From Alistipes sp. (GTDB lineage Bacteria > Bacteroidota > Bacteroidia > Bacteroidales > Rikenellaceae), in NCBI GenBank assembly GCA_017520545.1, contig JAFXFM010000018.1:111965-175964 (forward strand): DNA of 64,000 nucleotides. The letters run 5' to 3'. This document shows positions 38,920 through 39,237 of this stretch, in pieces. Numbering within the stretch: the stretch's first letter is position 1; each line of letters opens with the position of its first letter. The notes under the pieces are model-generated. The model saw only the letters and a list, made by a program, of their open reading frames with translations. It was not told the origin of the DNA and did no database searches. Both the position numbers and the translations under genes were made by a program.

Positions 38920-39228
38920 CTACTCACTTTCGGCTTTTCGGGTACTCCGTCATCCTTTTTTCATTTAGGTTATGTACACACATAAAAAAAGCGAGGACTA
39001 AACTCATCTATCTGCTGTTGAGGTCTTCGACTACCTGTGGCACAAATATCAAAGTGAAGCCCACGCTAAAATACGTGAGCACCAACTTCACTTCTCGTGC
39101 CACTTTTGAAATTGTCGAAGTTTCAACAGCCAGAATAAAAGTTAACGCTTTTTCCAATATGTCTAAAATGTGCGTACCTTAATACGCTAATTCTTCATAG
39201 GCAAATTCTATTTTTTGTTTTACTACTC
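38920..39228 (-). ncRNA. Structured leader RNA Y
   Basis: On the minus strand the element opens with TTTGCCTATGAAG and TTTTAGACATATT. Nested helices follow: 39015-39021 with 39123-39129, 39025-39031 with 39114-39120, 39037-39043 with 39097-39103, 39052-39059 with 39086-39093, and 39062-39065 with 39074-39077. The cap is GCTCACG-tatttta-GCGTGGGC. CTCGCTTTTTTTATGTG and GACGGAGTACCCGAAAAGCC with GTGAGTAGG close it. The loop and flanks match leader X, but every stem differs while remaining paired. CTACTCAC occurs on the + strand at both ends (38921 and 39223). Confidence 0.7.
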
Positions 39229-39229
39229 A

Positions 39230-39237
39230 CAAAGGTA
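39230..39237 (-). promoter_or_regulatory. -7 box for leader RNA Y
   Basis: The minus strand reads TACCTTTG, with TTG 20 bp upstream at 39260-39258. It occupies the same position relative to the element as the box at 34082. Confidence 0.65.

Follow-up and report, generated by a model that had tools for sequence, protein, structure and literature searches.

In the 64,000-nt stretch of an Alistipes sp. genome analysed here (the window; GenBank assembly GCA_017520545.1, contig JAFXFM010000018.1, positions 111,965 to 175,964), a minus-strand leader of ~320 nt, element Y, runs from a TAnnTTTG box (39237), which we take to be a Bacteroidota-type -7 promoter box, to a membrane-protein gene (ATG 38883). 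The features that the first-pass annotation had named for Y are found on this strand at the positions it gave, in the order promoter box, helices, U-run and gene. That account lacked three things that are included here, namely a covarying pseudoknot, a mini-ORF, and a 3' end that resembles the DUF805b motif:

39230-39237, minus strand: promoter box TACCTTTG
39193-39204, minus strand: TTGCCTATGAAG, sequence read
39187-39198, minus strand: mini-ORF ATG AAG AAT TAG (MKN*)
39172-39187, minus strand: local hairpin hp1, GCGTA..TACGC, its 3' strand common with P1
39168-39178, minus strand: closing helix P1, 5' strand
39156-39168, minus strand: unpaired conserved TTTTAGACATATT, its conservation biased because it lies in the search pattern
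39146-39153, minus strand: basal helix P2, 5' strand
39123-39129 and 39015-39021, minus strand: P3, CTGTTGA/TCAACAG
39114-39120 and 39025-39031, minus strand: P4, CTTCGAC/GTCGAAG
39097-39103 and 39037-39043, minus strand: P5, GTGGCAC/GTGCCAC
39086-39093 and 39052-39059, minus strand: P6, AAGTGAAG/CTTCACTT
39059-39080, minus strand: apical hairpin GCTCACG..CGTGGGC, common to X- and Y-type elements
38995-38999, minus strand: pseudoknot strand PKa (AGTCC)
38984-38993, minus strand: P2, 3' strand, with the conserved U-run
38974-38983, minus strand: closing helix P1, 3' strand
38952-38955, minus strand: pseudoknot strand PKb (GGAT)
38932-38951, minus strand: GACGGAGTACCCGAAAAGCC, sequence read
38917-38950, minus strand: DUF805b-like motif (Rfam RF02914), below the gathering score
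38407-38883, minus strand: downstream gene, 158 aa, N-terminal part hydrophobic

The product of the Y gene gives a zinc-ribbon match that is weak and below the cut-off, and no NCBIfam match at E 0.001. The same window holds a second copy of the leader, element X:

33764-34089, minus strand: element X, the X-type copy
34082-34089, minus strand: promoter box
34035-34052, minus strand: mini-ORF MKHCV*
34023-34031 and 33820-33828, minus strand: P1
33841-33845 and 33800-33804, minus strand: pseudoknot
33764-33798, minus strand: DUF805b-like motif
33373-33738, minus strand: downstream gene, a small exported protein as judged by its N-terminus

Both elements fold far better than shuffled versions of themselves. 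For Y the minimum free energy is -95.5 kcal/mol, whereas 100 shuffles give -71.3 +/- 5.1, a z of -4.8; X has a z of -4.6, and in neither case was any of the 100 shuffles as low. The two had been described as one design with every stem rewritten, which overstates the difference, as both have the apical stem GCTCACG/CGTGGGC, the basal helix AAAAGC/GCTTTT and the greater part of the closing helix. Two further features of Y were considered and set aside. A GTGAGTAG repeat at both ends was rejected as a target-site duplication because X is without the 5' copy, and a second local hairpin competing with P2 (AAAGC/GCTTT), spotted by eye, was dropped as it is not kept in X.

Relatives were collected at two levels. 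Within the genus, the pattern CGCACAWTTTAGACATATT with at most two mismatches matched 44 of 180 genomes, compared with 6 for the reversed pattern. The exact pattern found 56 stretches in named genomes: 32 from Rikenellaceae/Alistipes, 11 from Bacteroidaceae, 12 from other Bacteroidales or Bacteroidia (two of them Candidatus Symbiothrix) and one from Nonlabens, which is judged to be chance. Thirty of the 67 mismatch-pattern matches, the exact-pattern stretches and the copies in the window's own genome gave 73 extracted loci, of which 67 were kept as the genus set; L079, L102, L106, L116, L126 and L140 were left out as chance matches, as cut, or because the U-run was not found. As the pattern contains P1 and the TTTAGACATATT loop, the conservation of both is partly ascertainment. 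The genus set splits into 49 X-type elements (P4 GTTTGGCG..CGCCAAAC) and 18 Y-type elements (mostly CTTCGAC..GTCGAAG). In one rod, L091, the 5' half carries a CTTAGGA P4, the 3' half is Y-like, and P3 and P4 are unpaired; it appears to be a chimera, making recombination within the rod possible.

A rod covariance model (R1), built from 16 Y-type rods and giving rough E-values, matched 116 of 344 genomes of the order, spread over 73 of 195 genera, when E-values up to 0.001 were accepted, and 35 of 345 genomes in a draw from the phylum at E up to 1e-5, the window's own genome counted. Matches per genome reached 8 in cases with 8 candidates scored. From the matches listed, 87 places were hand-chosen as an order-wide set, 1 to 3 per genome, leaving out Y itself (L166), a near-duplicate (L177) and an overlap (L253); all 87 re-scored above threshold. 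X and Y are not isolated copies.

The genome that carries the window has five DUF805b matches with E < 1e-4. Four of these, X, Y, C8 and C13, have a rod; the fifth, C12, is the 3' motif only, behind a promoter box. Pattern and model searches added rods at C3, C17:50124, C16:34503 and C24:5143, for a total of eight rods found in 1.9 Mb. There is no obvious exported-protein gene behind the leader at C17:50124. A third, longer type was also seen, with a bigger apical part and, where read, a basal helix GAAAGTG/CACTTTC. Its members are L044 and L052 (by model R1), L038 and L047 (by eye) and, in the same genome as the window, L261 (C16) and L262 (C24); the last two precede exported-protein genes, and L038, L044 and L047 precede DUF805b.

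The claim that structure is under selection is strongly supported, as covariation exceeds the controls in the X-type, Y-type and order-wide alignments alike. Among the 49 X-type elements, 90.6% of cells are paired (84.0 in shuffles), and 270 cells are doubly changed compared with 95.6 in shuffles and at most 94 in slid versions. Three of five measures lie above all 500 shuffles; of the other two, 9 shuffles equalled or passed the value for 'pairs with a change' and 62 that for 'further pair types'. The 18 Y-type elements have 89.1% of cells paired (83.6 in shuffles) and 53 doubly changed (13.6), with four of five measures above all shuffles and 'further pair types' reached by 180. As the structures were taken from the member sequences, they have an advantage over the slid versions. 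By helix, P1 is paired in 92.7% of X-type and 88.1% of Y-type cells, and in 57 of 67 elements it has an unbroken run of 6 bp or more; P2 is paired in 98.3% and 81.0%, respectively; Y-type values are 86.6% for P3, 98.4% for P4, 78.6% for P5 and 93.7% for P6. Across the 87 order-wide sequences the figures, favoured by an alignment fitted to the rod model, are 98.4% for P3 (several pair types), 99.3% for P4 and 96.7% for the apical hairpin. P3 and P4 show up to six pair types there, and the covariation score of the order-wide alignment is 0.621 versus 0.203.

That stem identity itself is a specificity or incompatibility code, as had been suggested, finds no support, and the specificity reading is rejected. 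P4 is nearly invariant in the X-type, where every pair of GTTTGGCG/CGCCAAAC is found in 45-49 of 49 elements; related genes lie behind both stem types (the families of L098/L143, L096/L119 and L088/L097); and near-identical leaders precede unrelated genes. Within the X-type, P3, P5 and the pseudoknot are variable and P4 hardly so, and on the alignments the variation of the first three is that of a fast-evolving structured RNA.

In the genus set, 52 of 67 elements have a TAnnTTTG box in the 75 nt that lead up to the mini-ORF, compared with a mean of 7.0 in shuffles. Order-wide, 61 of 86 elements have one upstream of the rod (mean 9.7 in shuffles; 4 of 82 in a control stretch farther upstream). 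From the ATG of GCYTATG a mini-ORF of 1-6 codons reaches an in-frame stop before P1 in 67/67 elements, 0-14 nt from P1 in every one, with products such as MKHSV*, MKH*, MKN*, MK*, ME* and M*. The other frames of the same stretch also stop (+1 in 62/67, +2 in 49/67), so stop-rich sequence explains part of this result, and frame 0 alone is modest evidence. In the order-wide set, searched with no anchor, 50 of 86 copies have an ORF of at most three codons within the 67 nt ahead of the rod, against 21.3 +/- 3.6 in shuffles, compared with 9 of 83 (11.8 shuffled) in a control stretch; in 19 of 87 copies the 105 nt ahead of the rod are free of ATG. Some copies carry other motifs just upstream of the rod: GTTCTTT in L179, L196, L199, L203, L219, L220, L240 and L241, most of them without a mini-ORF, and GGAGG in L198, L201 and L248.

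Hairpin hp1, of at least 5 bp, can form in 61 of 67 genus-set elements and is mutually exclusive with P1, as one strand is common to both. In L098 and L104 this strand has changed from ACGC to ACAC, with fitting changes in both partners, a double compensation of little weight, since these partner strands are also found in other elements, where they pair by G-U. A U-run of 6-9 is present in 66 of 67 genus-set elements, and the longest T run at the rod end is at least 5 in 82 of 87 order-wide ones.

The pseudoknot joins the 5 nt before the 3' strand of P2 and the U-run to a strand after P1. Its pairings include GUACC/GGUAC, GUUCC/GGAAC, GUGCC/GGCAC, GCUCC/GGAGC and GUCUC/GAGAC. At least 5 Watson-Crick bp within a free 10-nt window are found in 52 of 67 elements, compared with 12.9% when tails are swapped between elements and 10.3% when shuffled. 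In one fixed register the count is 36 of 67 (5.2% swapped), or 48 of 67 with G-U allowed. The pseudoknot of Y itself is weak, with about 4 bp including one G-U. Order-wide, where the script found no U-run in 3 of 87 copies and the test rests on 84, at least 5 Watson-Crick bp are found in 38 (23.8% swapped), and a pairing score of at least 16 in 32 (8.7% swapped).

Downstream of this strand lies the one part of the leader with a catalogued counterpart. The 3' end of Y matches the DUF805b RNA (RF02914) with 24.7 bits (E 0.00099) and that of X with 32.5 bits, both below the gathering score of 35.6, which is exceeded by the long elements C8 (38.8 bits) and C13 (38.1 bits) of the same genome. DUF805b is a cis-regulatory RNA in Rfam, and the leaders share with it a motif of 35 nt that contains CCGAAAA and GAGUAGG and stands immediately in front of the gene. 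In Y this motif lies directly upstream of the gene and ends 33 nt before the ATG, and in the leaders it sits just after the pseudoknot strand; the 35-position Rfam model is without rod, P1, pseudoknot and mini-ORF. By a regular expression the motif is present in 32 of the 63 long elements of the genus set and in 5 of the 87 order-wide ones, many long elements thus being without it. DUF805b also occurs rodless: of 29 genus loci collected through it, model R1 sees a rod in 9. Complementarity of the CGG/CCG and CCC/GGG type, noted by eye inside the motif (e.g. window 38917-38950), suggests an H-type pseudoknot that is absent from the printed Rfam structure line.

Rfam 15 scans of the whole window at gathering scores, of window 33600-39400 at E up to 5 and of L005 at E up to 10 matched no other family to the rod, the only hits being eukaryotic families far below their gathering scores. 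Beyond the short known motif at the 3' end, these scans link the rod class to no catalogued RNA family. In the literature searched, no paper was found on DUF805b by name or combined with Bacteroidetes structured RNA, nor any title or abstract describing a leader RNA like Y; a 2017 paper, reportedly the source of the motif, was outside the scope of that search.

Behind the leader, the longest stop-free frame (500 nt) reads in the direction of the leader in 63 of 63 cases of the genus set and in 77 of 83 of the order-wide set; upstream the figures are only 25 of 65 and 18 of 28. An ATG frame of at least 45 aa starts within 260 nt behind the leader in 63 of 67 elements, versus 39 of 65 for the same finder applied upstream on the other strand. 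By a heuristic requiring a start with lysine or arginine and a hydrophobic stretch, 59 of 63 next genes in the genus set encode signal peptide-like N-termini, compared with 18 of the 48 ORFs of the window that reach 120 aa; order-wide the figure is only 51 of 85. The 63 genus-set proteins fall into 46 clusters. Among 20 scanned, domains past the Pfam cut-offs are trypsin-like, LRR, BACON, fn3, CsgG, lipocalin, DUF5036, DUF6567 and NADase-translocation, with outer-membrane barrels below the cut-off only. The 18 scanned order-wide include LytTR, helicase, TerB and a PLD-like protein, with HTH matches just below the cut-off. At class level, a long frame begins roughly 230-290 nt behind the rod in 5 of 7 loci read, and the two genes scanned encode TonB-dependent Plug proteins, one with a SusC/RagA signature. 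The first-pass annotation had named diverse stems with diverse small envelope genes as what would support a cassette-like RNA system, and the homologues do show both. As a separate observation, short HTH-like proteins with a common IHIG/IHVG start lie behind the rod in L200, L213, L230 and L249, in genomes of four families; Pfam HTH_3 falls just below the cut-off in two and gives no match in two.

Seventy-five pairs of rods are at least 88% identical; among the 60 pairs listed many precede unrelated genes, with homology often ending near P1 or near the start codon. The rods of L009 and L133, 98% identical, precede unrelated genes; L133, whose rod is 98% identical to that of Y, sits at another locus before another gene. 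At the X locus, compared in three genomes of three species, the upstream flank (86.5-88.7% identity), the leader (86.8-96.6%) and the downstream flank (92-99%) are kept, and the 1.6 to 2.8 kb of genes between leader and downstream flank are largely unrelated, save for one 450-nt piece (76%) common to the window and L132. The description of the system as cassette-like is in this respect partly borne out: leader and flanks are constant there, and most, though not all, of what lies behind the leader differs. The slot (window 32070-33697, minus strand) holds small secreted-protein genes that differ among the window, L132 and L130. At the Y locus, synteny with the one relative compared for an empty site (G005) is lost before the locus.

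What the sequence comparisons show is a leader under structural constraint, linked to a promoter and to a gene, in which two 5' helices exclude each other and a U-run and a pseudoknot follow. The reading we prefer, with about even confidence, is that Y forms the 5' leader of an mRNA, one of a class of structured cis-regulatory leaders of Bacteroidota that is not yet catalogued and acts by switching folds. The RNA would choose between an open 5' end, with hp1 formed and a ribosome on the mini-ORF, and a closed fold of P1, P2 and pseudoknot. The base of P2, with its A-tract and the U-run, may work as a conditional terminator, or pause, of giant size; with no more than 3-4 GC pairs in the P2 stem, termination is unproven, and the pseudoknot, lying beyond the U-run, cannot take part in that decision. 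In the full-length mRNA the closed fold would govern access to the start codon. In the window's genus the genes under its control would for the most part encode small exported proteins, and a DUF805b module often stands between the rod and the gene. Attenuator and riboswitch leaders in general have the same plan of promoter, mini-ORF, exclusive helices, U-run and gene; the leaders described here differ from them in the size of the rod, the conserved internal loops and the pseudoknot beyond the U-run.

Other explanations fit parts of the evidence. A riboswitch for a metabolite or second messenger, with the conserved loops around P4 (AA/ACC, AATTTC/GGGTA) as aptamer, would account for loop letters that stay constant while the flanking stems change, and c-di-GMP riboswitches likewise occur in many copies before diverse envelope genes. 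It is nonetheless unlikely, as the 38 downstream proteins scanned share no common pathway and the mini-ORF would need a separate role. Near-identical leaders before unrelated genes, homology that in many cases breaks off directly behind P1 or close to the start codon, and the differing cargo at the conserved X locus would all suit a mobile repeat of the MITE/ERIC type, or a recombination anchor, by which promoters are spread and cargo genes exchanged and whose structure serves movement. Against this stand the single orientation relative to the gene, the retained promoter box and mini-ORF, and a U-G pair that is kept in 75 of 87 order-wide copies and fits RNA of the leader strand. No target-site duplication was seen, and Y has no blastn match at E 0.01 in the phage and plasmid collections. 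We regard this explanation as rather improbable. A retron, integron or phage origin was considered as well and set aside; the blastn search just named and one with a narrow apical-hairpin pattern (0 viral contigs) gave it no support, though both are too narrow to decide the matter.

Its own promoter box, the U-run behind a strong hairpin and the several copies per genome could also mark a stand-alone sRNA gene with its end at the U-run, in which case the gene that follows is a mere neighbour. The covarying P1 and pseudoknot, however, both draw on sequence beyond the U-run, and the orientation to the gene is fixed, leaving this a small probability only. The large rod, the conserved loops and a mini-ORF near the 5' end would be compatible with a ribonucleoprotein scaffold or an element guarding the 5' end of the mRNA, for which no specific support was found and which we consider quite improbable.

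Bacteroidota ribosomes rarely use Shine-Dalgarno pairing. It is conceivable, if most improbable, that the leader is a bacterial counterpart of the viral ribosome shunt, the ribosome ending the mini-ORF at the foot of the pseudoknotted rod and passing over the rod to the gene start, so that the RNA fold and not the sequence would couple mini-ORF and exported protein. Two observations bear on this: AUGs between P1 and gene are mildly depleted (39 versus 51.4 +/- 5.2 shuffled), a weak test, and the gene's ATG is the first AUG behind the stem in 33 of 63. In plant pararetroviruses a 5'-proximal short ORF, down to start-stop size, ends before a large stem-loop with the gene behind it (PMC5902531). 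Y-like leaders share this layout, the mini-ORF ending before the base of a large stem-loop, and are likened to it by layout alone, as the viral process depends on eukaryotic scanning in that account. The FopS sRNA of Bacteroides is another multi-copy Bacteroidota RNA family tied to envelope genes; it has a single-stranded 5' seed stretch followed by a terminator hairpin and base-pairs with other mRNAs (PMC11697453). The leader, unlike FopS so described, does not have this arrangement of seed and terminator.

The outcome is a ~250-nt pseudoknotted RNA class, found in 73 of the 195 genera that were sampled from one order, and also outside that order, for which the Rfam 15 match covers a 35-nt neighbour motif only. 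It would set the DUF805b motif in a larger context, and the mini-ORF before the rod makes the question of Shine-Dalgarno-poor translation concrete and testable. The class would represent a control layer common to exported and surface proteins of gut and rumen bacteria.
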